Positions 6,763 through 38,404 of a stretch of 38,404 nt of DNA are shown here, in pieces. This stretch comes from a virus: positions 1 to 38,404 of IMG/VR virus record IMGVR_UViG_3300046542_000297; one strand, written 5' to 3'. Under the pieces are notes generated by a model, which searched no databases, had not been told where the DNA came from, and saw only the letters and a program-made list of their open reading frames with translations. A program made the position numbers and the translations under genes. Each line of letters opens with the position of its first letter. The stretch's first letter is position 1.

Positions 6763-7929
6763 ATGCCAAAGATTACGAATTTCGAGCACAACGGCGTCAC
6801 GCTCAACACCACCGAATCGCCCGAGGCAATGGGCGGCATTGGCGACAACGTGGTCGGCCTCGTCGGCACTGCGCCAAACGCAGGCTTGGGCATTCCGAAA
6901 AATGTCCCGTTTCGCATCAACACCCTCGGCCTCGCTGAGCTGCTGGACCCGACCGGCGTTGAAGAAGGCACCCTGTACCAGACCGTGAAGCAGATTCTCA
7001 AGGTCGTAAAGGTGCCGATCTATGTCGTGGTGGTCGATAAGGGCACCACGCCGGAACTGACCAAGACCAACGTCATTGGCGGTGTAGACCCGACCTCTGG
7101 CCAGCGAAAGGGCCTGTCGGCGCTGTCTACCTGTCAGGAAATGCCGACGATCATCGGCGCGCCGGGTTTCTCGTCCGAGCAGGCCGTGCATAGCGAGCTG
7201 GCTTCGCTGGGCAAGCGCATTCGCGCGCGGGTAGTGCTGGACGGCAAAGACGTTACGGTCGCCGGCCAGGTAACGAATATCACCTCGATCGGCGGCGCCG
7301 AGCTGGGCTATGACCGCTGCTACCTGGTTCACCAAATGGCGGCCGTTTACTCCAAGGCTGCGAAGGCAAATGTGTTCTTGCCGCCTTCTAGCCTGGCGAT
7401 CGCCGCGCTCGCGTCGGTCAAGCAGTGGGAAAGCCCCGGCAACCAGGTCACCTACGCGGCCGACGTGTCGCGCACTGTCGAGTACAACATTCTCGACAAG
7501 TCCACCGAGGGCGATCTGCTGAACAGCTACGGCATCAGCTACTACGCCCGCACTGAGCTGGGCGGCTTCTCGCTGCTGGGCAACCGCACCGTCACCGGCA
7601 AATTCATCAGCTACGTGGGGCTCGAGGACGCGATCGCTCGCAAGCTGGTCGGCGCGGCTCAAAAGGTCATGGCCAAGAACCTGACCAAAGGGTTCATGGA
7701 TCAGGAAGTCGAGCGCGTCAACCAGTGGCTGCAGACGCTCGTCGCCGACGGCACCATTCCGGGCGGCAAGGTGTACTTGCACCCCGATCTGAACAGCGTC
7801 GAGAAGTACAAAAACGGCACCTGGTATCTGTGCATTGACTACGGCCGCTATGCCCCGAACGAGCACATGGTTTACCAGCTCAACGCAAGCGACGCCATCA
7901 TCGAAGAATTCTTGGGGGATGTTCTCTAA
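6763..7929 (+). CDS. FI: Tail sheath protein gpFI
   Basis: A 388-residue contractile tail sheath subunit of the P2 gpFI family. The N-terminus has the typical GVxxNTTESPEAxGGIGDNVVGLVGTAPNA segment. The middle carries the catch-all beta domain, and the C-terminal third contains the conserved sheath core (GFMDQEVERVNQWLQTLVADGTIPGGKVYLHPDLNS and the final HMVYQLNASDAIIEEFL). The length matches P2 FI (396 residues). It marks the phage as a myovirus. The next gene, the tail tube, begins at the last base of the sheath gene. Confidence 0.96.
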   Translation: MPKITNFEHNGVTLNTTESPEAMGGIGDNVVGLVGTAPNAGLGIPKNVPFRINTLGLAELLDPTGVEEGTLYQTVKQILKVVKVPIYVVVVDKGTTPELTKTNVIGGVDPTSGQRKGLSALSTCQEMPTIIGAPGFSSEQAVHSELASLGKRIRARVVLDGKDVTVAGQVTNITSIGGAELGYDRCYLVHQMAAVYSKAAKANVFLPPSSLAIAALASVKQWESPGNQVTYAADVSRTVEYNILDKSTEGDLLNSYGISYYARTELGGFSLLGNRTVTGKFISYVGLEDAIARKLVGAAQKVMAKNLTKGFMDQEVERVNQWLQTLVADGTIPGGKVYLHPDLNSVEKYKNGTWYLCIDYGRYAPNEHMVYQLNASDAIIEEFLGDVL

Positions 7930-15037: not shown

Positions 15038-15381
15038 TCCCCTTTGTGTCGGTCAGGCCCGCCAAACTTGGCGTCGGTGCGGCCGTCGTTGTCGAGGTCG
15101 CGGTCAGGTCCGCCGAACGTGGCGTCGGTGCGATCATCGTTGTCGAGGTCGCGGTCAGGCCCGCCAAACTTGGCGTCGGTGCGGCCGTCGTTGTCGAGAT
15201 CGCGATCGGGGCCGCCGAACCTGGCGTCGGTTCGGCCGTCATTGTCGAGATCGCGATCAGGGCCGCCGCACGTCGCGTCGGTGCGCTTGTCGCGATCGAC
15301 GTCGCAGTCGCGCGCGGCGGCGCCCGTGGAGGCCAGCAGGGCGAGCAGGATGGCGCCCGCGCGGATCTTGTTTAGGGTCAT
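15034..15381 (-). CDS. Secreted Asp-rich repeat protein (putative calcium-binding)
   Basis: A 115-residue protein with a clear cleavable signal peptide (KIRAGAILLALLASTGAAA, cleavage near residue 23). Almost all of the mature part is a 17-residue repeat of the form GGPDRDLDNDGRTDAKF, present about five times. Each repeat has the DxDxDGxxD spacing of calcium-binding loops such as those in dockerins and thrombospondin type 3 repeats. Two cysteines flank the first, diverged repeat. No whole-protein homologue is known to me. It should be exported to the periplasm or surface. It is translationally coupled to the genes on both sides. Confidence 0.7.
   Translation of the reverse strand: MTLNKIRAGAILLALLASTGAAARDCDVDRDKRTDATCGGPDRDLDNDGRTDARFGGPDRDLDNDGRTDAKFGGPDRDLDNDDRTDATFGGPDRDLDNDGRTDAKFGGPDRHKGE
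15052..15306 (-). repeat. Five 51-bp tandem repeats in the secreted protein gene
   Basis: Units begin at about 15052, 15103, 15154, 15205 and 15256. The first four are close to identical and the fifth, encoding the N-terminal repeat, is diverged. The 51-bp length keeps the reading frame, so copy number can change without breaking the gene. Confidence 0.92.
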
Positions 15382-15743: not shown

Positions 15744-16061
15744 TTAGATCAGCGACTCAAGCCGGCGAGCTAGCTCGGCCTGGTTGCCGATTTCGTAATG
15801 CCCTTTCCCGTCGTGATACTTCTTAAACAGGTCGTCGAGTGCCTCAATAATCAGGTACTTGACCGGCACGCTGTCGGCCGACATGTTTTTAATGTCGGTG
15901 GTGCCCGTGTGGTATTTCGTCGGCACGATTGCCTTTAGCTGTTTCTCGTCGCCGCCGTCGGCCACCACTGCCTTTCTGGCTTTCTCGAGGTGCGCCTCGT
16001 CTGGTGCGCTGGCTGGCCTGCTGGGGCGTTCCAGGCTGATTTTCGGTGCTGGCTTGCTCAT
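15744..16061 (-). CDS. parB: Small ParB-like partition partner
   Basis: A 105-residue protein encoded directly behind parA, with a four-base ATGA overlap. The N-terminal half is basic and flexible. The C-terminal half (VPVKYLIIEALDDLFKKYHDGKGHYEIGNQAELARRLESL) looks like the ribbon-helix-helix or helical dimer domain of small type Ib centromere-binding proteins. It lacks the large HTH ParB fold. In type Ib systems this protein binds repeats upstream of parA and represses the operon. The identification rests mainly on operon position and size. Confidence 0.7.
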   Translation of the reverse strand: MSKPAPKISLERPSRPASAPDEAHLEKARKAVVADGGDEKQLKAIVPTKYHTGTTDIKNMSADSVPVKYLIIEALDDLFKKYHDGKGHYEIGNQAELARRLESLI

Positions 16062-16705
16062 TTATCCATCTCCAATAGCTCGAGGGTCACGGCCTCGATA
16101 TCGTCCCGTGCGCCGTCGCCTGCAGGGAGGTCAAACACGCTGAGCCCCTCGGCGATTCCGTTTGTATACGAGACGCTCTGATATGTTTTGGCGTTGAGCA
16201 CTGGCAGCTCGTAGCCGTGCAGGGCCTCTGTCGCGGTTCTCTCGATAATTGTGTTTCTGATGGCCCTGGCGACCAGCAGCACCGCTTTCGGCAGGCCGTC
16301 GGTAACCTCCTGGCGATCCTTCACGAGCTGCACCATGTCCCGGGTGGCCCAAATGTCGTATTGGCTTGGCTGTACCGGGATGATCACCAGGTCGGAAATT
16401 TTGACCGCGTCAGAGGTCAGGGGTGTGATCTTCGGAATACCGTCGATGATTACGTAGTCATACCCCGAGGAAATGCGCGGCAGGTCGCGCTTGATCGTCT
16501 CGCGCATGATTACGCAAGGGACCGGCACGGCGTCGTCAGAGCGCGCGCTTGCCCAGTCAGTGGCCGACCCTTGCGTGCCGTCCAGGTCAACCAAAAGCAC
16601 GTTCTTTTTATGCACCGTAGCCAGGCAGGCGGCGATATTTGTCGCGCTGGTGGTCTTTGTGGTGCCGCCCTTTTGGTTCTGAAATGTCCAGATTCTTGCA
16701 GCCAT
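16058..16705 (-). CDS. parA: ParA-family partition ATPase (type Ib)
   Basis: A 215-residue Walker-type ATPase. I start at the ATG before AARIWTFQNQKGGTTKTT, which has GAGG eight bases upstream; a longer in-frame start at 16780 would translate the promoter. The deviant Walker A motif QKGGTTKTT is at residues 9-17. The A' motif VLLVDLDGTQGSATDW follows at about residues 36-51, and the Walker B-like YDYVIIDGIP at about 85-95. There is no N-terminal HTH, which places it in the short type Ib class. With ParB it should position the linear plasmid prophage at cell division. Confidence 0.9.
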   Translation of the reverse strand: MAARIWTFQNQKGGTTKTTSATNIAACLATVHKKNVLLVDLDGTQGSATDWASARSDDAVPVPCVIMRETIKRDLPRISSGYDYVIIDGIPKITPLTSDAVKISDLVIIPVQPSQYDIWATRDMVQLVKDRQEVTDGLPKAVLLVARAIRNTIIERTATEALHGYELPVLNAKTYQSVSYTNGIAEGLSVFDLPAGDGARDDIEAVTLELLEMDK

Positions 16706-16735: not shown

Positions 16736-16789
16736 AATATACGTACAAATGTACCTTTGTACAATAGTACGTAAGGACAAAGGTACAAA
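16736..16789 (-). promoter_or_regulatory. parA promoter with GTAC-repeat operator / centromere
   Basis: On the minus strand TTGTAC (16764-16759) and TATATT (16741-16736) are spaced by exactly 17 bases. The element is filled with inverted and direct copies of GTACAAA and AAAGGTAC (for example at 16743, 16751, 16759 and 16782). Type Ib ParB proteins bind such repeats both as operator and as parS, so I propose this as parS and autoregulatory operator. Related sequences recur at four other control regions of the genome. Confidence 0.6.
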
Positions 16790-17039: not shown

Positions 17040-17398
17040 GGGCAATGGGTGTATATATACACCCATTGCCCGCAATCCCCATACACCCATAGCCCGTACC
17101 AATATACACCCATAGCCCTACTTTGACTTAGGGCAATGGGTGTATACACCGATTGCCCATTCTATACGTATAGAATGGGCAATCGGTGTATACACCCATT
17201 GCCCAATATAGAGCATTTGCATGGCAGTATATTGGGCAATGGGTGTATATTGGCGGGGATTGGGCAATGGGTGTATATTTGAGCGGTCAATGGATGTATA
17301 CAAATGCGGGCAATGGGTGTATAGTTGATCTAATTGGTTCGCGGGCTATGGGTGCATAGGCGCAACCTTCTATTCTTCTTTAGGGCAATGGGTGTATA
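17040..17398. repeat. Telomere-region repeat array (16-bp motif, about 14 copies)
   Basis: The motif GGGCAATGGGTGTATA or a close variant occurs on the plus strand at 17040, 17131, 17177, 17234, 17262, 17285, 17308, 17343 and 17383. It occurs on the minus strand at 17056-17071, 17080-17095, 17103-17118, 17143-17158 and 17189-17204. Pairs form a perfect 32-bp palindrome (17040-17071) and the 74-bp palindrome at 17131-17204. The last copy runs into the protelomerase start codon. In N15 the protelomerase target is likewise surrounded by extra inverted repeats. The copies are probably protelomerase or regulator binding sites. Confidence 0.9.
17131..17204. other. telRL: Telomere resolution site telRL (74-bp perfect palindrome)
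   Basis: Every base of 17131-17167 is matched by the reverse complement in 17168-17204, centred on TCTATACGTATAGA. Protelomerases cut such sites staggered about the centre and reseal each side as a covalently closed hairpin. The inner part (ATTGCCCATT next to the centre) closely resembles my recollection of the N15 telRL core. It lies 196 bp upstream of a protelomerase gene with all catalytic residues. Cleavage would give a linear prophage with the protelomerase gene at one end and parA near the other. Confidence 0.93.
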
Positions 17399-17399
17399 T

Positions 17400-19034
17400 A
17401 TGAGCGACGAACTGATGACAGGTGAAGAAATGCAGCCAGACCAGGAGCGCGCCAGCTTTGGCAATTACGGCGGAGCCACTCGCCAGAAAATCGATCTACC
17501 GCCTTTGATCGACAAGCTGATCAGCGATATCCAGCTCATCGACTCAGACCGTTACATGTCGCGCAGCAAGAAAACTCAGCGCATAACGCGAGTGGCTGAG
17601 AGTCTTAAAAAGCGCCTGTATGAGGACAAGCGCCGAAACGAAGACGACAAGCTGAAGGCGTCGACCTATCGCCGATATTTGACCCTCGTTCGCAAGGCTG
17701 TCACTGCGCAGAACTGGCGGCATCATGGGCTTGAGGAGTCTGCTCGACGCCTGGCGAAGCATCACCCACGCTACGCCGAGCAGCTGCACGCACTGGCCGA
17801 AATGGAAAACATTACAGAGCTCCGTCTCGCGCACCGTGATCTGCTGAATCAAGTTCGCCAGGATCGCGACCTCGATGCTTTCGACGCGATCCAAGGGATG
17901 AAGCTCGACCACGAAGTAATGCGGCACCTGGTGCTGCCTGCAGTAACAAAAGTCGAGCTTGCGACTCAGGCCGCTGCCACGCTTGAGAAGCGCGCAACCA
18001 ACACGATCGAGGTCAACTATTACAAGTTCATTGATACCGCAAGCGGGCTACTGACCCACGCCGAAATCGGCAGTGATGGCGAGCCTGTACAGCGGTTCTC
18101 GGCGCTGGCGCTTGGGCTTGCGATGGTTACCGGGCGCCGGGAGGTTGAGGTTTTGGTGCTAGGGCGCTTCAAAAAAGTCGGTGAGTTTGAGCTCGAATTC
18201 AGCGGGCAGGCCAAGCGACGCGGCGGCGTCGACTACAGCTCGAGCTATCGAATCTATAGCCTTATCCCGGCCGACCTGGTACTCGCGGCCGTAGAACGGC
18301 TGCGGGCATTGCCTGAGGTGCTCGAGCTGCAGCACCTGGACAACACCGAAATCAATCGCCGCGTCGCGAAAACTCTAAATACCACGGCCAAACGTGTATT
18401 TGGCGGCGAGGGTTGGGTATTCAAAGACAGCCGCGCCATATGGGCCCGAATCGTTTTCGAGACCCACTTCACGCGCGACGCTCGATGGAAAACCGTAAAC
18501 GAAACGGTGTTCTGGCGGGAAATGCTGGGGCACGAGGACATGGATACCCAAGAAAGCTATAAGGCTTTCAAAATCAGCTACACCAACAACGCGCCGGCCG
18601 AGCCGGTAAGCAAGTACGGCAGCCGGCTCGAGGCGCTCGAAGCGCTCGACGAGCAGGCCGCTGGCGGTGTGGCTTCGCAGCGGATTCATAGTTGGGTTAA
18701 GCAGGCTGTGGCCGCTTCGCCTGACGTCCTTATCTCGCAGAAAGCGATCAGTGTGAACGTCGGCAGCCACCGGCAAGCGATTAAAGACTATCTGGCTATG
18801 GCCAGTGAGGCTCTGGCCACGCCTAACCGCTCAATCCGGGCGGTCGCGCCGGTCGTTCCGGCAGAGGTGTCGAATGCCAGGCCGAGAATCTCGGTTCGCG
18901 AGATCTCGGACGGTCGTTTTGTTGCTGTCGCCAAGTTAAATGGCGTCGAGATCGCCAGCGCGGAAGGTGACAGCAAGGAGGAGGCTCAAAGGGCCTTGTT
19001 CGCCGCTGCCGCCAGCGGTAAAACCAGCGCCTGA
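17400..19034 (+). CDS. tel: Protelomerase (TelN/TelK-like)
   Basis: A 544-residue hairpin telomere resolvase that converts circular or dimeric replicated DNA into linear plasmid with hairpin ends. With the ATG at 17400, the five active-site residues of TelK-type tyrosine recombinases are present with the same local spacings: Arg247 (TGRREVEV), Lys272 (GQAKRRG, 25 residues later), Arg345 (KDSRAIWARI), His378 (33 later, LGHEDMDT) and the nucleophile Tyr387 (9 later). Residues 1-230 are the helical DNA-clamping part. The length is shorter than TelN (631) and close to marine-type enzymes. The start lies in the last telomere-region repeat, which suggests autoregulation. An ATG at 17430 has a better ribosome-binding site (AGGTGA). 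Confidence 0.95.
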   Translation: MSDELMTGEEMQPDQERASFGNYGGATRQKIDLPPLIDKLISDIQLIDSDRYMSRSKKTQRITRVAESLKKRLYEDKRRNEDDKLKASTYRRYLTLVRKAVTAQNWRHHGLEESARRLAKHHPRYAEQLHALAEMENITELRLAHRDLLNQVRQDRDLDAFDAIQGMKLDHEVMRHLVLPAVTKVELATQAAATLEKRATNTIEVNYYKFIDTASGLLTHAEIGSDGEPVQRFSALALGLAMVTGRREVEVLVLGRFKKVGEFELEFSGQAKRRGGVDYSSSYRIYSLIPADLVLAAVERLRALPEVLELQHLDNTEINRRVAKTLNTTAKRVFGGEGWVFKDSRAIWARIVFETHFTRDARWKTVNETVFWREMLGHEDMDTQESYKAFKISYTNNAPAEPVSKYGSRLEALEALDEQAAGGVASQRIHSWVKQAVAASPDVLISQKAISVNVGSHRQAIKDYLAMASEALATPNRSIRAVAPVVPAEVSNARPRISVREISDGRFVAVAKLNGVEIASAEGDSKEEAQRALFAAAASGKTSA

Positions 19035-19321: not shown

Positions 19322-22300
19322 TTAAGCTCGCATGAGCTTCGCCGCGTAGTTCAATGTCCACTTCGCCGATGCGAGGTCGACGTCTGGATGCGCCAGCCCC
19401 ATTACCACCTCAGGCCTCAGCGCCCCGATCACTCGTGCAACCGGCGTACCGTGGGGGAGGTCGCAAAGCGAGGCGACTGCAAACACGCGCTCAGCAATGT
19501 TGAGTGGATACTTTTCAAATGTACTTACACACTCATACTGCAAAGTATCCATTCCCGCGCTGATCGCTCCTGCGTTGAGCAGGGCGGCATGATCCGCTGG
19601 AAGCTCCTCAGGGGCCAGCAGGGGCTGATGAGTGGCTTCGTGCTCGTGGGTGGTCAGGGAGTGGACGTTTTTCGCTGCACGGCGCTTCACGTAGGCCATA
19701 ACGAACGCCCATTTCTCCTCGTTGAGGGTGTAGAAGTTGTGAGAGCTCGTTTTGTGCTTCTTCGTGGACTGCCCCAGCCGCTCGAGAATCGACTTAACGA
19801 GGGTGGTTGCGCAGACCTTCGAGCCAAGCGTAGGCACGTAGCGGCCGAGCTTGAGCGTGTTGTAAAGGTCTAGCGTGTCCTGGTCGGTTTTGATCAGTGC
19901 CAGCACCTGGCGGCACTGCTCGCTGCCAAACTTGCCCGTTCCAGTGTGCCGGTCGACGGTAAGGATCTCGAAAATCTGCTCGAGCATGGCGCGAGGCGAG
20001 GCCTTGAAGCGATGTTGAGTCAGAACGACGCGCGCTTTGCGCTGCGCGAGGTCATAGGCCTGGGCCTGGGCTTCGCTCGACTGCAGCAGCTCGAGCGCCA
20101 CGACTTTGGTGATACCGCGATCGTCATAAAACGCGACGTCGTCAGGGGTGATCTCGTCCACGCCGAGCTGATGCTCGATGTGGTAGCGGTCGACCTGGGC
20201 GCTTTCGCTCTCGCTGCGCACTTCCTCGCGGTTGAGCTTGAGAAACTCCTCCTCGGTTGGCGTGGCCACGCTGTTGAGCAGATCCATACGCTTGGCGAAA
20301 ACGAGCTCGCCCGCGAACTTGCGATTTTCTCGCGACGTTTGGGTGAGTTCCTCCTCGGCGCCTTTCAGATCCAGGCGCTGCACGAGATAGCCCTCGCCCT
20401 CGAGCATCAGCAGCAGATTGTTAGCAAAGTGCGATCGCGCCTTATTTTCCGAAGCGACTGCAGACAGGTAAACCGTGTCGAACGCAGTTTTCTTGCGGGT
20501 AACGCGGTACTCGTCGGGTGTGTTTTCGATCTCGCAGGCGAGGCCCTCGAGCACCAGCATGCCGCGATAGAGGACGTCAGGGTTTGTTTCGCGCTGGCCA
20601 GAGGTGTGGCCGATTCCGATGATGTAGTGCTTTGCTGTCCGATCGCGGCGCAGCATCTGCAGGGCGTCGGATGGGCCGACCGTATTGCCACTGAATAGGC
20701 CGAAATGGCAGTCAAAATGTGGCTTTGGCCACGACATTGATACGCCCGAGGAAATAGCCGGCGAATAGATCAGCACGTCGTATTTGAGTGCCTCGTCTTT
20801 GGGGTTGAGCAGAAACTCTTTAACGTCCTCGTCGGCCTTGCTGTCAGCGTGAACGAGCAGCATGCGAACCGGGTCGATCTCGCCGGTTTTGACCTTATCC
20901 TCGACCAGGGCGGCCATTTTCTTGGCGCTCTCTGCAGAGTCGTTGGCCACCAGTACGCGGCGCCCGGCGCAGATCTGATCGACGGCCAGCTGCCAGACGC
21001 TTTCCTCGTCGCCGTGGTCGACGCGGATCTGCTGGTTATGGCCGATGACCTCGATAACGGTGATCACCTGGCCAGGGCGAGCCAGTTCGCAGAATTCGAT
21101 AACAGTGTCGTTTGCGTCGGCGTCGCAGAGCAGTACGCGCCTGGCCGACGCCACGGCGTTAATCAGCGAATCCATAACCTTGACGCGCCCGTCGACCGGG
21201 CCGGTGGTGGTGTGGCGGATAACCTGGCTCGCTTCGTCGATGCAGAGCGTTTCGAGCGTGGTAAACCAGCTGCGCTCCTCGGCGTTGTAAAACTTGCGAT
21301 GGGTCAGGCTGTTGACGCAGCAGGCCAGGTGCGAAACGTAAGGCATATGCCAGGCCTCGACCTCGCGGTAATGCTCGACCTTTACGTCGGCCTGTTGAAG
21401 GGTGCCGCGCTTCAAGTTTAGGCGCGCGGCGGCGTCGTCGAGTAGGGAGATACGGTGCGCCACGTAAGCGCCTTTTTCCGACGCCTGCAGAATCGGTGCG
21501 ATTACCTCCTCGGTTTTCCCCGAGCCCATAGGCGAGCGCAAGACGACGATCCCCTCGAGACTTTCGATCAGGTCGGCCAGGTGCGCGGGCACCATTGGAG
21601 AGCCGTGGACCGGGTGGGGAGTGGCGGCAATCGGCATGTAGCGGATGTGGGCTTTCTTGAGCGTCTCAGGCGAGAAGCTGCGCAGCTGCTGCGCGCGGCT
21701 GAGCTTGTCGCGGCTGATCCAAAGCGCAAAGCTGCGCAGCTTGGCGCGGATGGCGTCTGAAATCATAGCGGGCAGCTGCTGCAGCACGACGGCGATAATC
21801 TCGTCGGTACCGAACTTAATCGGCACCAGGTTCATGCCGGCATTGATCGCCATTTTCGCCGGTTTCTCAGCCAGGCGGCCGCTGTACGAAACGCGCTGCA
21901 GGCAGTAGCTAAACCAATCTTTCTCGGCACGAAAGACGCTGGCGCGAGCGTGCAGCGCTTTGGCCGTGGCCTTGAGTCCGTAGGCGACGTGGTAGTCGTT
22001 CCAGTCGGTCGGGCCTTTTTCAGTGCGTTTAGCCTCGGCGATTTCCTCGTCGCTCATATCGAACGCGGGAACGATGCCAGGGTGCTGGAATTCTTTGTGT
22101 AGCTCGAGGGCGGCCAGCAAACCGGCGTTACCCGCCGTTTTCCATTGGTCATTGTCGGCGGCGTTGAGGAAACGCCAGGCCGGGCAATGCTTGTTATAGG
22201 TGGTCAGCACCTTGACCAGGTTGTCGACGTTGAACGTGACGACCACGGCCACGCTGCGGCCTGCGGCCTCCTCGGCCAGGTAGACGCTGGCGCCGGTCGC

Positions 22301-23179
22301 AAAACCTTCGACGGCGTAACGGTACTCGGCCGTTTCAATATCGCCGATGATGCAGTGCGCGCCGTCCATCTTGACGCCGCGGCCTTGCATTTTGGTGCGT
22401 TTCTCGTCGTGGTAAATGCGCTGCAGGCCGAGAAAATTGCGCTGGATATCGAACATCGGAACGGCGGTAAAAACACCGTGACTGTCACGCAAACGCTTCA
22501 TTTCAAAGCGTGACACGATTTCGGAAATTTGCTTGTCCTGCAGGTAAGGTGCGCTGCCGTCCTCGATTCCAGCGTACTCGACAAAGCTCTCGAAAACGCG
22601 GCCAGACTTGAGCTCGACCTCGAAAACGCTTCGCTCGCCGGTTGACCAGGTGCGCTCGTAAGCCAGGCGCTCGTTATGAATACGCTCTGCCTGGATCGCA
22701 GCAGCTGCCGCGTCGGCCTCGAGCTGCGCGGCACGTTCGGCGCGCTTGGCTTCTTGCTTCTCGCGAAACGCGCGATCGCGATCGCTGATCTCGAGGCCCT
22801 TTTCGGCCTTGTACAGATCGATAAGCGCACTAAGGCCAGACCAGGTCGAGGCGCCGGTTACGTTGTTGCTGAAAGTCAGGTAAGGGAAATCAATCGGCGA
22901 CTGATCGGTTTTTTTTGGCGTCGAGCGTTTCAGCTCGCCCCATACCATCACCTTGCCGGTGTAGCGGGTGTCGGTCGCTTCGACCTTTACCTTTGAATAT
23001 TTCTTGAGGCGCTCGCCGTTGAGGCGAACGCTGGCGCTGACTGATGACCATTTAACCGAGGCGTCGGCTGCCGCTGCGGAAATGTCCGCATCGAAATAGG
23101 CCATCAGGTCGTAAGGGTCGGAGGAGAATCTCTCCTGATAAAAGGCCCCTAGCCCGGTGCTCCGTGGTACGTTTGTCAT
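19322..23179 (-). CDS. repA: RepA-type replication protein (primase-helicase)
   Basis: A 1,285-residue multidomain replication protein, close to the size of N15 RepA (about 1,320), which primes, unwinds and initiates replication of the linear prophage. The start at MTNVPRSTGLG has GGGA six bases upstream. Toprim-type primase residues are visible: EGFATG (Glu near 291), DND near 342 and TDWNDYH near 392. A helicase domain follows with Walker A SPMGSGKT (about 550-556), Walker B-like CIDEAS (about 647) and a later GRRVLVANDSAES motif. The C-terminal 250 residues are of unknown fold. In N15 the origin lies within repA; the same may hold here. A CI-like operator and a GTAC-type repeat lie upstream. 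Confidence 0.92.
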   Translation of the reverse strand: MTNVPRSTGLGAFYQERFSSDPYDLMAYFDADISAAAADASVKWSSVSASVRLNGERLKKYSKVKVEATDTRYTGKVMVWGELKRSTPKKTDQSPIDFPYLTFSNNVTGASTWSGLSALIDLYKAEKGLEISDRDRAFREKQEAKRAERAAQLEADAAAAAIQAERIHNERLAYERTWSTGERSVFEVELKSGRVFESFVEYAGIEDGSAPYLQDKQISEIVSRFEMKRLRDSHGVFTAVPMFDIQRNFLGLQRIYHDEKRTKMQGRGVKMDGAHCIIGDIETAEYRYAVEGFATGASVYLAEEAAGRSVAVVVTFNVDNLVKVLTTYNKHCPAWRFLNAADNDQWKTAGNAGLLAALELHKEFQHPGIVPAFDMSDEEIAEAKRTEKGPTDWNDYHVAYGLKATAKALHARASVFRAEKDWFSYCLQRVSYSGRLAEKPAKMAINAGMNLVPIKFGTDEIIAVVLQQLPAMISDAIRAKLRSFALWISRDKLSRAQQLRSFSPETLKKAHIRYMPIAATPHPVHGSPMVPAHLADLIESLEGIVVLRSPMGSGKTEEVIAPILQASEKGAYVAHRISLLDDAAARLNLKRGTLQQADVKVEHYREVEAWHMPYVSHLACCVNSLTHRKFYNAEERSWFTTLETLCIDEASQVIRHTTTGPVDGRVKVMDSLINAVASARRVLLCDADANDTVIEFCELARPGQVITVIEVIGHNQQIRVDHGDEESVWQLAVDQICAGRRVLVANDSAESAKKMAALVEDKVKTGEIDPVRMLLVHADSKADEDVKEFLLNPKDEALKYDVLIYSPAISSGVSMSWPKPHFDCHFGLFSGNTVGPSDALQMLRRDRTAKHYIIGIGHTSGQRETNPDVLYRGMLVLEGLACEIENTPDEYRVTRKKTAFDTVYLSAVASENKARSHFANNLLLMLEGEGYLVQRLDLKGAEEELTQTSRENRKFAGELVFAKRMDLLNSVATPTEEEFLKLNREEVRSESESAQVDRYHIEHQLGVDEITPDDVAFYDDRGITKVVALELLQSSEAQAQAYDLAQRKARVVLTQHRFKASPRAMLEQIFEILTVDRHTGTGKFGSEQCRQVLALIKTDQDTLDLYNTLKLGRYVPTLGSKVCATTLVKSILERLGQSTKKHKTSSHNFYTLNEEKWAFVMAYVKRRAAKNVHSLTTHEHEATHQPLLAPEELPADHAALLNAGAISAGMDTLQYECVSTFEKYPLNIAERVFAVASLCDLPHGTPVARVIGALRPEVVMGLAHPDVDLASAKWTLNYAAKLMRA

Positions 23180-23223
23180 TTTGTCCCTTTGGTCCAAAGT
23201 ACAAAGGTGAAAAAGTACAAACG
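23179..23223. repeat. Dispersed GTACAAA/AAAGG repeat at the rep promoter
   Basis: Copies of TTTGTCC, CCAAAGTACAAAGG, GTGAAAAAG and GTACAAA lie directly before the rep start codon. The same words occur at 16743-16789, 28531-28570, 28807-28868 and 31415-31487. On the minus strand TTGTACTTTTTCACC lies where a rep -35 could be, so binding here could also regulate rep. Confidence 0.6.
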
Positions 23224-23224
23224 A

Positions 23225-23252
23225 TTGACGCTGTATCACACGGGCCTAAACT
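23225..23252 (+). promoter_or_regulatory. Promoter of putative small RNA
   Basis: TTGACG (23225-23230) and TAAACT (23247-23252) are separated by 16 bases on the plus strand. No protein gene follows; a strong plus-strand terminator comes about 110 bases after the expected start site. Confidence 0.55.
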
Positions 23253-23489: not shown

Positions 23490-24155
23490 TTATAGAACCT
23501 CTCCTTTGTCGAAGGTCGCACGAACCCCGACAACGACACCAATGCTCTCGAATGTATCACCGACCTGCTGCATGGGAAACTGAGGGTTTAGCGCTCGCAG
23601 GTAAAATGCCGAGCCGTCAAGCGTCAATTTCTTGAATACAGGTGCGGTTGAGTCGCCGAGGTGCGCGACGACAAAGTCATTCGCGACCGCTTTTCGCGCA
23701 GGATCGACGAAAATCGTGTAGCCGTTCGGAAAACTTACGCCTGCTGGCGCTTGCATGCCCTCGTCGCGCACCGTCATAGCGAAGACGCGACCAGGTGGCG
23801 TATCGAGCGGCACGACCCATTGGGTACCGGCCGGAAGCCTTTTAGGGTCGGGGTTCTTCGCCCATTCAGCAGCACGCGCCCACGGAATTACAGGCACGCG
23901 GCTTGTGCTCTCGCTTGGAGCTGTGAACCCGTTCGGGTCTGCTGCTTCCTTTAATAATATGTCTACGGTCGTTCCTAAGCCTTTGGCCAGGGCGACGGCG
24001 ACGTAGACGCTAGGCGCCACGTCCTTTGTCTCGATCGTTGCAAGGTGCCCGGTTGACATGTCGACGCCTGCGGCATCGATCAGGGCTTGCAACGACCATC
24101 CAAGGGCTTGCCGCCGCATCCGTATTGCGGTGCCGATTGTGTAGTCGCGCTGCAT
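23490..24155 (-). CDS. cI: CI-like lysogeny repressor, autocleavage residues lost
   Basis: A 221-residue repressor with GAGGGAACA before its ATG. Residues 5-65 are a lambda-repressor-type HTH (TIGTAIRMRRQALGWSLQALIDAAGVDMSTGHLATIE). The C-terminal domain aligns with lambda CI and LexA-type S24 domains (FPNGYTIFVDP, FKKLTLDG, LNPQFPMQ). The nucleophile context, usually GDSM or GNSM, reads DEGMQAP, so the serine is Gly133. The usual Ala-Gly scissile pair (VQAGEW in relatives) reads ARAAEW. The Lys (175/176) remains. The dimerisation fold is probably kept, but RecA-driven self-cleavage should be impossible. It keeps the prophage silent, and its operators flank the gene. Confidence 0.88.
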   Translation of the reverse strand: MQRDYTIGTAIRMRRQALGWSLQALIDAAGVDMSTGHLATIETKDVAPSVYVAVALAKGLGTTVDILLKEAADPNGFTAPSESTSRVPVIPWARAAEWAKNPDPKRLPAGTQWVVPLDTPPGRVFAMTVRDEGMQAPAGVSFPNGYTIFVDPARKAVANDFVVAHLGDSTAPVFKKLTLDGSAFYLRALNPQFPMQQVGDTFESIGVVVGVRATFDKGEVL

Positions 24156-24255: not shown

Positions 24256-24301
24256 AATGTAGTCATAGCGACATGTGACCAATGATCTAGGGAAGGGTGC
24301 T

Positions 24302-24904
24302 ATGGGTACGCGAACTGAGCGGGATGTAGTGATCGATCAGACTAGCCGATGGTTTGCCCACTCGGATTGGTCCCTCGAGCGATTCGCCAGCGAGCGACTG
24401 GCGCCTGCGCTGTCAGCCGCGGGCCTGATCGATACGCTCGAGGAGCCGGCCGACGTCGAGGCCTATCAGCGCACCCGTAAAGCCTGGTCGCAACGTGTCT
24501 CCCGAATTTTTCACGCTACGCAGCCTTTCCCTCTCGAGTGGAAATGGGTCTGGATCTCGTGCCTGCCTGACGACTATCAGCGCTCTGCGCGTTCCGAGCT
24601 GCTGGCAATGGCTGGCTGCTTCGACGTCCGTATCCCTGAGCTCGTCGGCCTTGTCGGTGTGCCGTCGGCAAAGGCTCAGCTCGGCGAGGTAACGCAGGCG
24701 ATCGGCGAGTTTCTGGCTGCCAGCGCCCCGGCTCATGATGGCTTCTACGACAAATCCGATAGCCCCGAGGAAGTCGATCGCATGTTGATCGAAGGAACCG
24801 AGGCTATTTCTGCCATGTTTAACGAGCTGGTCGCGCTGTCGACCGGCACCGGGCGCCCTCTGCCGCTGCTGATGCTGGCGAACCTCAAGGGGGAGCCGCT
24901 GTGA
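24302..24904 (+). CDS. First early gene, putative regulator
   Basis: A 200-residue protein read divergently from cI, with GGAAGG seven bases before the ATG. An upstream in-frame GTG at 24275 lacks such a site. Residues 15-75 contain a probable DNA-binding-like helical segment (DWSLERFASERLAPALSAAG ... YQRTRKAWSQRVSRIFHATQPFPLEWKWVWISCLP). The layout recalls CII- or YdaT-type early regulators, but I cannot assign a family. The C-terminal half is acidic and helical. Position immediately after the operator cluster, where Cro or CII normally sits, suggests a role in the lytic-lysogenic decision. It overlaps the next gene by four bases. Confidence 0.65.
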   Translation: MGTRTERDVVIDQTSRWFAHSDWSLERFASERLAPALSAAGLIDTLEEPADVEAYQRTRKAWSQRVSRIFHATQPFPLEWKWVWISCLPDDYQRSARSELLAMAGCFDVRIPELVGLVGVPSAKAQLGEVTQAIGEFLAASAPAHDGFYDKSDSPEEVDRMLIEGTEAISAMFNELVALSTGTGRPLPLLMLANLKGEPL

Positions 24905-25589: not shown

Positions 25590-25794
25590 CGTATCTGCCG
25601 GCCTCGAGCTGCGCCAAGACGACGCAGTCGAGCGCGCCATGCTTGCCGACGACTGCCTGCGTGCAGGCGTTGTCATGGTGCCCGTCTGCGGCGCCTGCGG
25701 TCGCAGCATCGATCAAACCCGGCTGCTGATCTGCCCTACGGCTTCCCGTTGCTCGCTGTGCTGCAGCGTGCCAGTGCTGGCAATGAGGCGCTGA
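25579..25794 (+). CDS. DksA/TraR-like zinc-finger protein
   Basis: A 71-residue protein with the four-cysteine zinc finger of the DksA/TraR family: CGAC at about residues 37-40 and CSLC at about 58-61, with the R-L-x-x-x-P-T-A-S-R-C spacing between. The N-terminal part is one helix (ADVSAGLELRQDDAVERAMLADD). Short TraR-type members, found on plasmids and phages, bind the RNA polymerase secondary channel and change promoter choice without ppGpp. Here it could shift host transcription early in infection. A GGGGG-containing site lies before the ATG. Confidence 0.75.
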   Translation: MFADVSAGLELRQDDAVERAMLADDCLRAGVVMVPVCGACGRSIDQTRLLICPTASRCSLCCSVPVLAMRR

Positions 25795-25796
25795 TC

Positions 25797-26621
25797 ATGA
25801 CCGCAAAACTTTCTATCGAGATCCGCCACCCCGCGCCGACGCCTGGCGCGTTCGAGTGCTGGGTGCTGCTGCCAGGCCCTGACGCCGGTCCGCTGGCGAA
25901 GCGTCGTTACAAGGCCCCGGCCGGGCCAATGGCTCAGGATCTGGTGTGGTTGCGTGATCGCCTGATGTTCGCCTACCTGGCGCCAGGCGATTACCGCGAA
26001 ACCGAGCGCCCGAGCGACGCCGACGGCTGCGGTGTGATCGAGACAGCCCGCACCCGCGACGCTTTCCCTCGTCGCCGTGCCGACGACCTGGCCGAGTGCC
26101 CGCTCGACGGCGCCGACAAGCCTACAAAGCTGCCTTTCGACTACGTGGCCAGCTTGGCCAGGGATACCACCCGAGTGACCTGCAGCGAGACGCGGAAAAA
26201 GAAAAAAAGCGCCATTCCGCTGGGGCCTACGGCATTCGAGGACGCCTATCTCGTCCGCACCGTGGCCACGCTGGCCCCCGAGCTGAGCCGCTGGATTCGC
26301 TACGCCTACGCCGATTCGATCGACTGGAACGACGAGGCCGGCAACGTGCTGGCCGCGTGGGAGCTCGCATTGCCCCAACTCGGGAAAATGCAAGGCAAGA
26401 CACTGCAGCGTGCCAAGGGCCTGGCGCACTTGGCCGTGCAGCACCACAAGCACCTCAAGAATTCCGGGCAGAGCCGTTACGACGGCCCCGCGTTGGCCCT
26501 GTTGCTGGGCGTCAGCGACGTGAACTATCGCCAGCACTGGCGAGCCCGCTGGGACGCTCTGCAGAGCGCCCTTGACCAGATCGACACCAGGGCGCTCGAA
26601 ACGCTCTGGCGCGCAATTTAA
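25797..26621 (+). CDS. Putative antiterminator Q-like protein
   Basis: A 274-residue protein with GAGG eight bases before the ATG. The C-terminal 130 residues (AFEDAYLVRTVATLAPELSRWIRYAYADSIDW ... WELALPQLGKMQGKTLQRAKGLAHLAVQH ... LALLLGVSDVNYRQHWRARWDALQSALDQIDTRALETLW) have the pattern of Q-type late antitermination proteins of Vibrio and Pseudomonas phages: aromatic-rich helices plus an HTH-like LLGVSDVNYRQHW. The N-terminal half is unlike lambda Q. It is the last gene before the accessory block that leads to a promoter followed by tandem terminators, the expected Q target. The assignment is moderately supported. Confidence 0.5.
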   Translation: MTAKLSIEIRHPAPTPGAFECWVLLPGPDAGPLAKRRYKAPAGPMAQDLVWLRDRLMFAYLAPGDYRETERPSDADGCGVIETARTRDAFPRRRADDLAECPLDGADKPTKLPFDYVASLARDTTRVTCSETRKKKKSAIPLGPTAFEDAYLVRTVATLAPELSRWIRYAYADSIDWNDEAGNVLAAWELALPQLGKMQGKTLQRAKGLAHLAVQHHKHLKNSGQSRYDGPALALLLGVSDVNYRQHWRARWDALQSALDQIDTRALETLWRAI

Positions 26622-26650: not shown

Positions 26651-27088
26651 ATGTTCGGCTTGAAAAAGAAACTGTTCGGCGCCGGTCGCACCATCAAGAA
26701 GCTGGAAAACCGCGACCTGATGCAGGCGATCGTCGGTGGTTGCCTGTTGGTTTCCGCTGCTGACGGCGAAATCAGCAAGAACGAAGCCGCGCAGATTGAT
26801 ATTCAGATTCGCGCGAACAAGGCCCTGGAGCACTTCGGCGCCGAGATCACCAAGACTGTGAACTTGTTCACTGAGCAGCTGCAGGCCGGTTTCCGCTTGG
26901 GTCGCATGAACATCATGCGCGAGATCCGCGACATCAAAAACAACCCGGCAGACGCCGAGGAAGTGCTCGTAAACATGCTGACCGTGGCCGAGGGCGACGG
27001 CAGTATCAGCCCGGACGAAATGAAGGTGCTCAACGAGATCGCCGTCGAGCTGGGTCTGCGCCTGAAAGACTTCGGCATCGACGCTTGA
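26651..27088 (+). CDS. terB: TerB-family tellurite-resistance-like protein
   Basis: A 145-residue protein of the TerB fold: helical, with two acidic metal-binding-like loops, SAADGEISKNEA (about residues 36-47) and AEGDGSISPDEM (about 115-126). The N-terminal FGLKKKLFGAGRTIKKLEN is basic. TerB proteins are calcium-dependent and linked to tellurite resistance, phage exclusion and envelope stress, usually within ter operons. Here it stands alone, so its function may be different. It has its own ribosome-binding site (GAGGGAAACACC) and likely belongs to the accessory block expressed with the early genes. Confidence 0.8.
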   Translation: MFGLKKKLFGAGRTIKKLENRDLMQAIVGGCLLVSAADGEISKNEAAQIDIQIRANKALEHFGAEITKTVNLFTEQLQAGFRLGRMNIMREIRDIKNNPADAEEVLVNMLTVAEGDGSISPDEMKVLNEIAVELGLRLKDFGIDA

Positions 27089-31490: not shown

Positions 31491-32063
31491 ATGGGCAAGA
31501 TCATCAGCAAAAAAGAGCTTGCCGACCTGATCGGAAAGTCTGAGCGCTGGATTACTGAGCTGCTCGACGAGGGCCTGCCAAAAGTTGGCGGCGGGGGAAA
31601 GGGCGTAGCCCTGCAGATTGACAGCGAGGCGGCCATTAATTGGCTGATCAAGCGCGAAATGCGTCGCGAAATGGGCGACGACGGCGAGGACGAGGAGGGG
31701 CTCAGCTCTGCGTCAACCGAGGATCGGCTGCTCAAACGCGCCAGGCGCGAAAAGCTGCAGCTCGAAATCGACCAGGTACGCGGCCGGCTCATTCCGAACG
31801 AAACGTTCGTCCACCTAAACACCAGCATTGCAGCGGTCTACGCAACGCAGCTCGACGCGCTGCCGAGTCGCTGCGCTGCCGATCTGGCGATTATCGATGA
31901 CCCTGCACTCATCCGAGCTCGACTATTTGAGGAGACGAGGCGTATCCGAGCGGCTACAGCCGACCGCCTCGAACATCGATCACGCGAGCTCGCTGCGAAC
32001 GTTGATCAAATCGATCCTGCAGGTATCGAGACTGGTACAGGCGCCGCCGCCGAGGACAGCTGA
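31491..32063 (+). CDS. Terminase small subunit (Nu1-like)
   Basis: A 190-residue protein. The N-terminal winged-HTH-like domain (MGKIISKKELADLIGKSERWITELLDEGLPKVGGGGKGVALQIDSEAAINWLIKRE) is the lambda Nu1 DNA-packaging type, which recognises cos. A central helix (RLLKRARREKLQLEIDQVRGRLIP) probably dimerises or contacts the large subunit. The 3' part overlaps the large-subunit gene in another frame. This predicts cos-type packaging. Confidence 0.85.
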   Translation: MGKIISKKELADLIGKSERWITELLDEGLPKVGGGGKGVALQIDSEAAINWLIKREMRREMGDDGEDEEGLSSASTEDRLLKRARREKLQLEIDQVRGRLIPNETFVHLNTSIAAVYATQLDALPSRCAADLAIIDDPALIRARLFEETRRIRAATADRLEHRSRELAANVDQIDPAGIETGTGAAAEDS

Positions 32064-34056
32064 CGAGTGGGCTCGTGACAAGCGAATCATGCCCCCAAGT
32101 TCGCCACGGCCAGGCCCGTTCAACCCTGACGTAAACCCCTACATGCGCCCCGTTTCGTGGGCTTTTGCGCAGCCTTGCTTTGACCGGGTGACGTTCATCA
32201 CGGCAACGCAGATGGGCAAATCGGTCACGATGGAAAACATCATTGGCCACCGGCTCGACGAAGACCCGACGCCGATCATGTACATCGCGCCCACGGCGCC
32301 GCTGCTGAAAGATGCGGTGGTGCCAAAGTTCGACGACATGATCAGCGAGTGCGATTCGCTGACCAAAAAGCTCGACGTGCGCAAGTCGACGACGTTCGTT
32401 AAATGGATCGCCGGCACAAAGCTGCGTTTCGTTTGGGCGGGCTCGCCCTCCGGCCTGTCGGCTGACTCTGCCGGCCTGATCATGGTCGACGAGGTCGATC
32501 GGATCGTAAACACGGGGGAGGGCTCGACTGTGAGCCTGGTCGAGCGTCGAGGCGACGCATACGACGGCTCGAAAATCGGTTACACGGCCACGCCAACGCA
32601 TGGCCGGGTGAGCAAGCGCCGGCACGAAGTATCGGGGCTCGAGCACTGGCAGGTCGCGTCGACCAAGGCGCTCGGCTCGGCAGTGTGGAAGCTCTGGCAG
32701 TCGGGAACACGCCACGAATGGGCGGTCCCGTGCCCTGAGTGCGGCGAGTATTTTATTCCCTGGTCGGGGCTGCTCTGGTGGCCAGGCAAGGGGTCTGAAA
32801 GCGAGTGCACCCCGGACGAAGCTCAGCGCGGCGCCCGGTTGACCTGCGGCGCCAGTGGCTGCCAGATCGAAAGCAAATGGCGGCCCTGGATGAACGAGCG
32901 CGGCCGCGCTGTTGCACCTGGTCAGTCGATCAGTCGCGACGGCGAGATAACCGGCGTCGCCGAGACGGCGGGCTCGACGCATTACTCGTTTGCAGCCTCG
33001 GGCCTGTGCTCGTTCTCCTCGAAAAAGACTTACGGCGCTCTCGCCAAGGATCTTTTGGCGGCGCAGCTGTCGGGCGATCCTGCCGATCTGCTGGCCGTCT
33101 ATAACACTGGTTTTGGCGAGTGCTACGCGCAGAGCGGCGACGTTCCGACGTGGGAGCAGGTTCGCTCTATGTGCTGGGGTTACTCGGCCGGGCAGCTGCT
33201 GCTCGAGCCGCTGAAAATCTACTGCACGATCGACGTACAGAAACGCCGCCTCGTTTACGTGGTGCGTGCCTGGTATGCCGGCATGGGTTCAATGCTCCTC
33301 GAGCACGGCGACCTGTGGGGCGACACCGATCAAGACGCCGTATGGGATCAGCTCAGCGAGTTGATCGATACCGAATACGGCGAGCACCCGATCAATATGA
33401 CCGGGATCGACATCGGCTACCGCGACGACAAGGTTTATCAGTTCATCAACGACCACAAAAACAGGGCGATCGCCCTGCGTGGCCGTGATCGGCTGGACAA
33501 GCCTTTTCGCAAAGAAATGGTCGAGGTCGACCGCAAGGGCAAGACGCGCAAGCGTGGCGACGCCCGCTGGGCATTCGATTCACCATTTGCCAAGCGGTGG
33601 GTGCATAGCCGTTTTGGTCGGCCAGACGATCGCGCCGGCTGGTGGCTTTTGCATCAGCAGGTCACCGACGGTTACTGCAAAGAGATCGTCGGTGAGGAGT
33701 GGCGCGAGGCCGAGGGGAAGTTTCACCAGGTTGGCGAAAACCACTACCTCGACTGCGAGGCGATGCAATACATCATGGCGCTGCGCGACAAGCTGCAGCG
33801 TCGCAAGGTGGGCGCCCTGACCCGCGCCGAGCTGGCCGCTGCCATCAAGGCCGGGCCATTGCGCGCCGTCGAGGATCTGCACGAGGAGGAGCCAGAAACG
33901 GCGCCTTTGCCTGCAGCGCCTCGCCCGGTGCCCCAGCCGCGAGCACCTCCCGAGCCAACGGCCCCGGCCAAGCCTGCCGCTAGGCAGCGCCGTGCTGACG
34001 CACCGCCAGCCAAGGCCCAAGGGCGCTTCAAAATCATCAAGAAGCCGATCAGGTAG
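31897..34056 (+). CDS. Terminase large subunit (GpA family)
   Basis: A lambda GpA-type motor and nuclease, about 719 residues from the ATG at 31897. A TTG at 32002, giving MIKSILQVSRLV, fits the usual GpA start better and is a real alternative. Features are TADEWARDKRIMPP near the N-terminus, Walker A-like ATQMGKS (near residue 105), Walker B IMVDEVD (near 196), a zinc-knuckle-like CPECGEY...CGASGC segment, and the nuclease-domain start IYCTIDVQKRRL (Asp near 445). The last 60 residues are Pro/Ala-rich. It cuts concatemers at cos and pumps DNA into proheads. Confidence 0.92.
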   Translation: MTLHSSELDYLRRRGVSERLQPTASNIDHASSLRTLIKSILQVSRLVQAPPPRTADEWARDKRIMPPSSPRPGPFNPDVNPYMRPVSWAFAQPCFDRVTFITATQMGKSVTMENIIGHRLDEDPTPIMYIAPTAPLLKDAVVPKFDDMISECDSLTKKLDVRKSTTFVKWIAGTKLRFVWAGSPSGLSADSAGLIMVDEVDRIVNTGEGSTVSLVERRGDAYDGSKIGYTATPTHGRVSKRRHEVSGLEHWQVASTKALGSAVWKLWQSGTRHEWAVPCPECGEYFIPWSGLLWWPGKGSESECTPDEAQRGARLTCGASGCQIESKWRPWMNERGRAVAPGQSISRDGEITGVAETAGSTHYSFAASGLCSFSSKKTYGALAKDLLAAQLSGDPADLLAVYNTGFGECYAQSGDVPTWEQVRSMCWGYSAGQLLLEPLKIYCTIDVQKRRLVYVVRAWYAGMGSMLLEHGDLWGDTDQDAVWDQLSELIDTEYGEHPINMTGIDIGYRDDKVYQFINDHKNRAIALRGRDRLDKPFRKEMVEVDRKGKTRKRGDARWAFDSPFAKRWVHSRFGRPDDRAGWWLLHQQVTDGYCKEIVGEEWREAEGKFHQVGENHYLDCEAMQYIMALRDKLQRRKVGALTRAELAAAIKAGPLRAVEDLHEEEPETAPLPAAPRPVPQPRAPPEPTAPAKPAARQRRADAPPAKAQGRFKIIKKPIR

Positions 34057-38054: not shown

Positions 38055-38342
38055 ATGAATGCCATTGCTCTGGCAGTAGGCTTTATCGTGATCCTGCTCG
38101 ACGACCTTTGGGTCCGTGGCGAGCTGATCGACAAAGGCGAGGCCGTCCAGGTCGACCGCGCTGTGCGTAACGACTGGATCGGCTCGAAACTGGCTCGCGA
38201 TGCCACCGACGAGGAGGTCGAGGCGTATCGAGCTGCAGAGGCAGAGGCGGCGGCCGACGCAGCTGCAGAGGCCGCCGCTGACTCCGACGCTGACGGCGCC
38301 GCCGACGCAGCGGGCAAGGCCGGCAAACGGGCCGCCAAGTGA
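38055..38342 (+). CDS. Small head protein with Ala/Asp-rich tail
   Basis: A 95-residue protein. Residues 1-55 form a small domain (MNAIALAVGFIVILLDDLWVRGELIDKGEAVQVDRAVRNDWIGSKLARDAT); the first 16 are hydrophobic, but the whole looks like the beta-hairpin core of capsid-accessory or DNA-packaging (gpFI-like) proteins rather than a membrane anchor. The tail is almost only Ala, Glu, Asp and Lys. The gene crosses the assembly junction; the copy at 1-65 is its end. It lies between capsid and head-tail joining genes, so a head completion role is inferred. Confidence 0.7.
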   Translation: MNAIALAVGFIVILLDDLWVRGELIDKGEAVQVDRAVRNDWIGSKLARDATDEEVEAYRAAEAEAAADAAAEAAADSDADGAADAAGKAGKRAAK

Positions 38343-38404
38343 TCGGCGACGACGACTTTGCGGCCTTCTATGACCCTGACGAGTTCGGCGCGATTGTGCA
38401 ACTG
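38278..38404. repeat. Terminal direct repeat, copy 2 (assembly overlap)
   Basis: Identical to bases 1-127. Joining the two copies restores the small head gene and the downstream joining gene without a break, so the genome is circular in this assembly. Confidence 0.9.
38339..38404 (+). CDS. 5' end of head-tail joining gene (full copy at 62-442)
   Basis: The first 22 codons of the putative head-tail joining protein, duplicated by the terminal overlap. It starts with GTG inside the preceding stop codon. Confidence 0.8.
   Translation, partial: MIGDDDFAAFYDPDEFGAIVQL

Follow-up and report, generated by a model that had tools for sequence, protein, structure and literature searches.

The locus at 17,040 to 19,034 of the viral record IMGVR_UViG_3300046542_000297 places a long perfect palindrome just upstream of a protelomerase gene, and it raises the question of whether the prophage is maintained as a hairpin-ended linear plasmid. 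Here the window denotes the whole 38,404-nucleotide stretch of that record. An initial annotation, made from the letters of this stretch, proposed an N15-like linear plasmid-prophage lifestyle. Hairpin ends in the sequence records of close relatives now support that proposal.

Protelomerase gene and telomere site

Judged by its sequence, the protein encoded at 17400-19034 is a protelomerase. It matches the Pfam profile ResT-TelK_cat (PF16684; 8.8e-28, 97.5 bits versus a curated cut-off of 27) and the TelK_stirrup domain (6.5e-8). Comparison with known enzymes finds TelK (PDB 2v6e, 5.2e-55) and gives identities of 53.7% to the phiHAP-1 protein and 48.3% to that of VP882. An AlphaFold model also matches TelK 2v6e (1.4e-18, 511 columns), with a TelK-like fold that has the N-terminal and stirrup domains. 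The five catalytic residues listed in Table 1, which the initial annotation had singled out together with their spacings of 25, 33 and 9, are invariant in an alignment with 19 homologues that include TelN, TelK and PY54 Tel. Relatives whose proteins are 93% and 85% identical have the same start as ATG 17400 and the same N-terminus, MSDELMTG. A sigma-70 scan 5' of the gene gave three weak matches versus 1.4 expected, and a clear promoter was not found there.

The telRL palindrome ends 195 bp before the protelomerase reading frame. It was described from the outset as a perfect 37+37 repeat, and it is exactly that, far beyond chance: the longest arms in 20 shuffled sequences are 7-10, the runner-up in the window, at 17055 within the repeat array discussed below, has arms of 17 bp, and all remaining ones have arms of at most 8. 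The core CCATWCTATAC/GTATAGWATGG is found in 32 stretches of IMG/VR, and relatives carry it at the matching place upstream of their protelomerase genes. The window protein is predicted to cleave the palindrome and form hairpins; relatives whose proteins are 62-83% identical to it show this outcome indirectly. The earlier statement that no integrase gene is present also holds at the level of profiles, in that tyrosine integrase (PF00589) and serine resolvase (PF00239) have no match in the window at E<=1 whereas positive controls were matched.

The C-terminus of the protelomerase (residues 496-538; window 18885-19014) folds like a double-stranded-RNA-binding domain. The likeness is a weak one, with a Pfam dsrm match of 0.019 and a Foldseek match to 2na2 at a probability of 0.95 but an E of 2.8.

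Genome content

Bases 1-127 are identical to bases 38278-38404, and this 127-bp terminal direct repeat closes the contig as a 38,277-bp circle. The window is almost certainly the whole genome of a temperate telomere phage with a contractile tail, in its circular or joint form, and its host is most likely Pseudomonas because the nearest sequences are from that genus. Its virion genes encode terminase, portal, capsid, tail sheath, tape measure and baseplate proteins, and its control region is of the phiHAP-1 type (S24 repressor, CII-like, Q).

Table 1. Coordinates of features in the window (strand blank where none applies or copies differ)
Feature	Coordinates	Strand	Evidence or remark
Tail sheath (contractile tail)	6763-7929	+	PHROG 23 tail sheath 1.5e-71
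Ribbon-helix-helix protein, 105 aa, likely ParA partner (ParB-like)	15744-16061	-	Antitox_RHH; conserved beside parA
ParA partition ATPase, ATG at 16705	16058-16705	-	NCBIfam ParA_partition 1.7e-60; PHROG ParA-like 2.4e-44
Five GTAC boxes at 8-bp multiples 5' of parA, candidate centromere/operator	16743-16786		function suggested by position
Array, left flank: 17040-17055 (+), 17056-17071 (-), 17080-17095 (-), 17103-17118 (-)	17040-17118		positions conserved in relatives
telRL telomere resolution site, exact 37+37 palindrome	17131-17204		100% complementary, no spacer, centre 17167/17168
Telomere core CCATTCTATAC/GTATAGAATGG, predicted cleavage and hairpin region	17157-17178		shared with relatives
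Array, right flank: 16-bp copies starting at 17234, 17262, 17285, 17308, 17343, 17383	17234-17398	+	
Protelomerase (telomere resolvase), 544 aa; catalytic R247, K272, R345, H378, Y387	17400-19034	+	profile, sequence and predicted-fold matches
Replication protein, CyRepA1 / N15 RepA type	19322-23239	-	NCBIfam CyRepA1 3.5e-101; PHROG 4913 replication 2.5e-283
Prophage repressor, HTH and S24 peptidase domains	23490-24155	-	Pfam Peptidase_S24 9.2e-15
CII-like activator	24275-24904	+	PHROG 4834 2.4e-51
Q-like antiterminator	25749-26621	+	Pfam Phage_antiter_Q 3.9e-14
Terminase large subunit	31828-34056	+	PHROG 15 6e-142

RepA and ParAB had been named as part of the gene set, and the profile matches bear this out for RepA and ParA but less strongly for ParB. 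The 105-aa protein beside parA is likely its ParB-like partner, as suggested by its position and a weak ribbon-helix-helix signal (Antitox_RHH matches in 12 of 14 family members, the best at 1.9e-5). A structure model of this protein reached a pLDDT of 63, and a fold search with it gave no useful match. The GTAC boxes, from where they lie, are likely a partition or operator site; GTAC is depleted genome-wide in the window (71 found versus 150 expected).

Hairpin ends in assemblies of relatives

When a hairpin-closed linear molecule is read strand after strand, the result is an inverted dimer that turns at TelLL and TelRR. Public assemblies of the nearest relatives now show the predicted lifestyle directly in this form, with the hairpin turn of the inverted dimers exactly at the telomere core. 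The P. corrugata record pPcorr-B21-055 (NZ_CP102178.1; protelomerase 72% identical) is labelled circular at 75,476 bp. It is an inverted dimer with a 37,738-bp unit: read around the circle, the two halves are complementary at all 37,738 positions, about centres at both telomere cores. The P. monteilii record pSTW0522-72-1 (NZ_AP022474.1; 82.5%) agrees with its complementary strand through the first 36,555 bases counted from the TelLL centre, after which a difference appears. Two contigs of IMG isolate 2713897325, of 43,314 and 31,688 bp, fold on TelLL and TelRR (21,657 and 15,844 bp) with arms that differ; the inverted repeat was checked over the whole length of the 31,688-bp contig and over 40 of the 43.3 kb of the other.

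Shorter snap-backs mark the ends of further contigs. Those of P. entomophila 6C6 are 26 and 28 nt long and have different arms, and those at the two ends of a metagenome contig, G017, are 19 and 20 nt long. The G017 phage is present in a second sample as G016, where telRL is intact and its palindrome reaches only 14 bases; the flanks are identical to those of G017 in the 60 bases compared per side. In P. frederiksbergensis 36C6, the ends of a 36,678-bp contig flank the telomere, and its genes are collinear with the window after circular permutation. Close relatives have closed hairpin ends and occur in two physical forms. Circular contigs with an intact telRL come from P. alcaligenes and two Halomonas isolates, and the assembly of the window is likewise circular and keeps telRL intact, the linear prophage form being seen in its relatives. 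Hairpins do not dominate every library, as would be expected if virion or induced DNA was present.

The circular assemblies, which comprise the window and several isolate contigs with an intact joint, would also suit a palindrome that serves only as a regulatory operator or cruciform in an ordinary circular plasmid. For the relatives this reading is contradicted because genome-length inverted dimers and end snap-backs centre exactly on the core, in at least four lysogen assemblies. The catalytic residues of the window protelomerase are also intact, and we regard an ordinary circular plasmid as improbable in the extreme. Inverted duplications can be created by assemblers, and on that ground the dimer records might be artefacts unrelated to hairpin ends. 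Their turn points, however, lie at the conserved core in different species and in projects independent of one another. Each dimer also has TelLL or TelRR in place of a TelL-TelR joint, so that an assembly origin appears very improbable. Closed hairpin ends remain the preferred explanation for these records.

Some candidate records were not counted as hairpin evidence. End snap-backs in 3300000053_000001 and 3300034523_000102 were rejected, as their arms, at 14 nt, do not exceed those of typical intact joints, and the former has an 87-bp direct end repeat that marks a circle opened at the telomere. The P. aeruginosa record pF010_1 (NZ_CP115281.1) is of double length, but one core was found in it and its copies differ.

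Some database "circular plasmids" of Pseudomonas are hairpin-ended phage genomes in double. NZ_CP102178.1 and NZ_AP022474.1 stand in PLSDB as complete circular plasmids of twice their real length, with their genes annotated in duplicate. A telomere phage contig labelled Spirulina subsalsa (NZ_JAIHOM010000047.1) begins at a telomere core, GTATAGTATGGGTGG, that resembles those of Halomonas phages, and it is therefore probably DNA of a co-cultured bacterium.

A repeat array around the telomere

About ten repeats surround the palindrome, a feature absent from the initial annotation. A 16-bp unit, GGGCAATGGGTGTATA, has 14 copies at no more than 4 mismatches, all in 17040-17398 and none elsewhere in the window. 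In its shortened 15-bp form, GGG-N7-TGYAY, the motif occurs twice in each telomere arm and then outward of the arms, at positions that Pseudomonas, Halomonas and Vibrio relatives share. Its offsets from the cut centre, nearly constant among relatives, are mostly 10 and 37 inside the arms, about 50, 74, 97 and 117-128 in the left flank, and 67, 96, 118 and 140 in the right flank, and the set varies between phages. The last array copy stops one base before the protelomerase ATG, and in most relatives a final motif copy also lies just 5' of the start codon. Pseudomonas-type phages, phiHAP-1 and VP882 all have the array, outside which the motif is nearly absent (0-3 further matches in each sequence examined); one relative has a single match.

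The flanking copies are probably further binding sites for the protelomerase, because the motif is shared with the arms, its positions are conserved and a permutation test is modestly favorable. In this test, the first seven bases of the motif were more alike between arm and flank within a genome (3.95/7) than between genomes (3.49/7), a likeness that is reached in 52 of 5000 label permutations and that relatedness among the genomes can inflate. The result is modest evidence that one protein may read both arms and flanks. Control of the protelomerase gene by the flanking copies is a further possibility, and a less secure one than binding. We tentatively propose that in phages of the VP882/phiHAP-1 type the resolution site could be a conserved array, mostly of about 7-14 GGG-N7-TGYAY copies at fixed distances, along which protelomerase may load until it covers the start-codon copy and shuts off its own synthesis. 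If this reading of the array is true, telomere resolution would be coupled to control of the protelomerase gene; a literature search for protelomerase autoregulation found nothing. The array is perhaps comparable to the inverted repeat around telRL in PY54 and P840, which P840 can do without for resolution (PMC10612081).

The motif might instead serve as a centromere for partition or as an iteron for replication, with the ParA partner or CyRepA1 and not protelomerase bound to it, and the phage would be a protelomerase phage all the same. The array does lie between parA and the protelomerase gene, and its direct repeats at a spacing near 23 bp resemble iterons. Against this, the motif is found twice in each telomere arm, which must be bound by protelomerase, and keeps its fixed offsets of 10 and 37 in most relatives. 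The arms of N15 and phiKO2 have a similar element, GGG-N6-TGTGC, at offset 10, and the different repeat of GTAC boxes beside parA is the likelier partition site. Binding by a partition or replication protein is accordingly an unlikely reading, though one that deserves some weight. Taken as protelomerase sites, the copies define in specific and testable terms what is recognised by this group of protelomerases, for which a structure was not found, and the definition may be of use in making closed linear DNA.

Proposed cycle

The enzyme, its site, the gene set and the absence of a detectable integrase are features of the window itself, whereas the resolution chemistry is predicted. Injected phage DNA would circularise, and protelomerase would bind telRL and introduce staggered cuts around 17167/17168 through Tyr387. 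Each telRL half would then be joined back to itself, and the prophage would become a linear plasmid whose ends are covalently closed hairpins. This prophage would be replicated by CyRepA1 and segregated by ParA and its ribbon-helix-helix partner, and protelomerase would resolve the TelLL and TelRR junctions after replication. Protelomerase on the flanking GGG-N7-TGYAY copies may help to build the complex and may shut down its own gene.

Relationship to known telomere phages

The nearest relatives are Pseudomonas telomere prophages that have the same layout and 72-93% identical protelomerases. Those compared are P. frederiksbergensis 36C6 (93%), pPHPALO418 of P. aeruginosa (a species with an 83% identical protein) and the P. 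monteilii and P. corrugata elements described above, two of the four being the double-length plasmid records. Even 36C6 differs from the window in its DNA, with matches that are 72-84% identical in most segments. The initial annotation had called a contractile-tailed phage with this lifestyle a rare combination known mainly from marine Halomonas and Vibrio phages. This view does not stand, as the relatives are mostly from Pseudomonas and two papers from 2025 report Pseudomonas telomere phages. Pseudomonas and Stutzerimonas telomere phages related to VP882 and phiHAP-1 have been described (PMC12042878), and a survey of TelN phages lists 213 Pseudomonas sequences (PMC12802170). The window is a further member of this already reported group, a kind that is known but lightly studied.

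With phiHAP-1 (Hapunavirus HAP1) the window shares the order ParA, telomere palindrome, protelomerase, RepA, repressor, CII and Q, as well as a contractile P2-like tail, the shape of the core and the flanking GGG-N7-TGYAY sites. It differs in its protelomerase (54% identical) and in the core, where phiHAP-1 has A in place of T (CCATACTATAC versus CCATTCTATAC). VP882 is also a contractile-tail telomere phage with the flanking motif and a 48% identical protelomerase, but between its protelomerase and RepA genes lies a LuxR-type (quorum-sensing) regulator, where the window has none. Phages of one genus share about 70% nucleotide similarity over the genome. The window has the gene order and module content of Hapunavirus, whereas megablast of 24.4 kb of it matched 255 bp of VP882 and 42 bp of phiHAP-1; its nucleotide similarity is below the genus level, and it is treated as a relative of the genus and not placed within it.

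N15, phiKO2 and PY54 have the same protelomerase family and lifestyle, with telRL just 5' of the gene. Their proteins are about 29-30% identical to that of the window, and they are non-contractile siphoviruses that lack the GGG-N7-TGYAY array. The telomere arms of N15 and phiKO2 begin with GCGTATAATGG, and these phages have the related GGG-N6-TGTGC element at offset 10 only.

Two further features of the window recur in its Pseudomonas relatives. A tandem repeat at 15050-15285, with a 51-bp unit present 4.6 times, is repeated in the P. frederiksbergensis phage too, and a TerB-family tellurite resistance gene at 26651-27088 has counterparts in the relatives from P. monteilii and P. aeruginosa.
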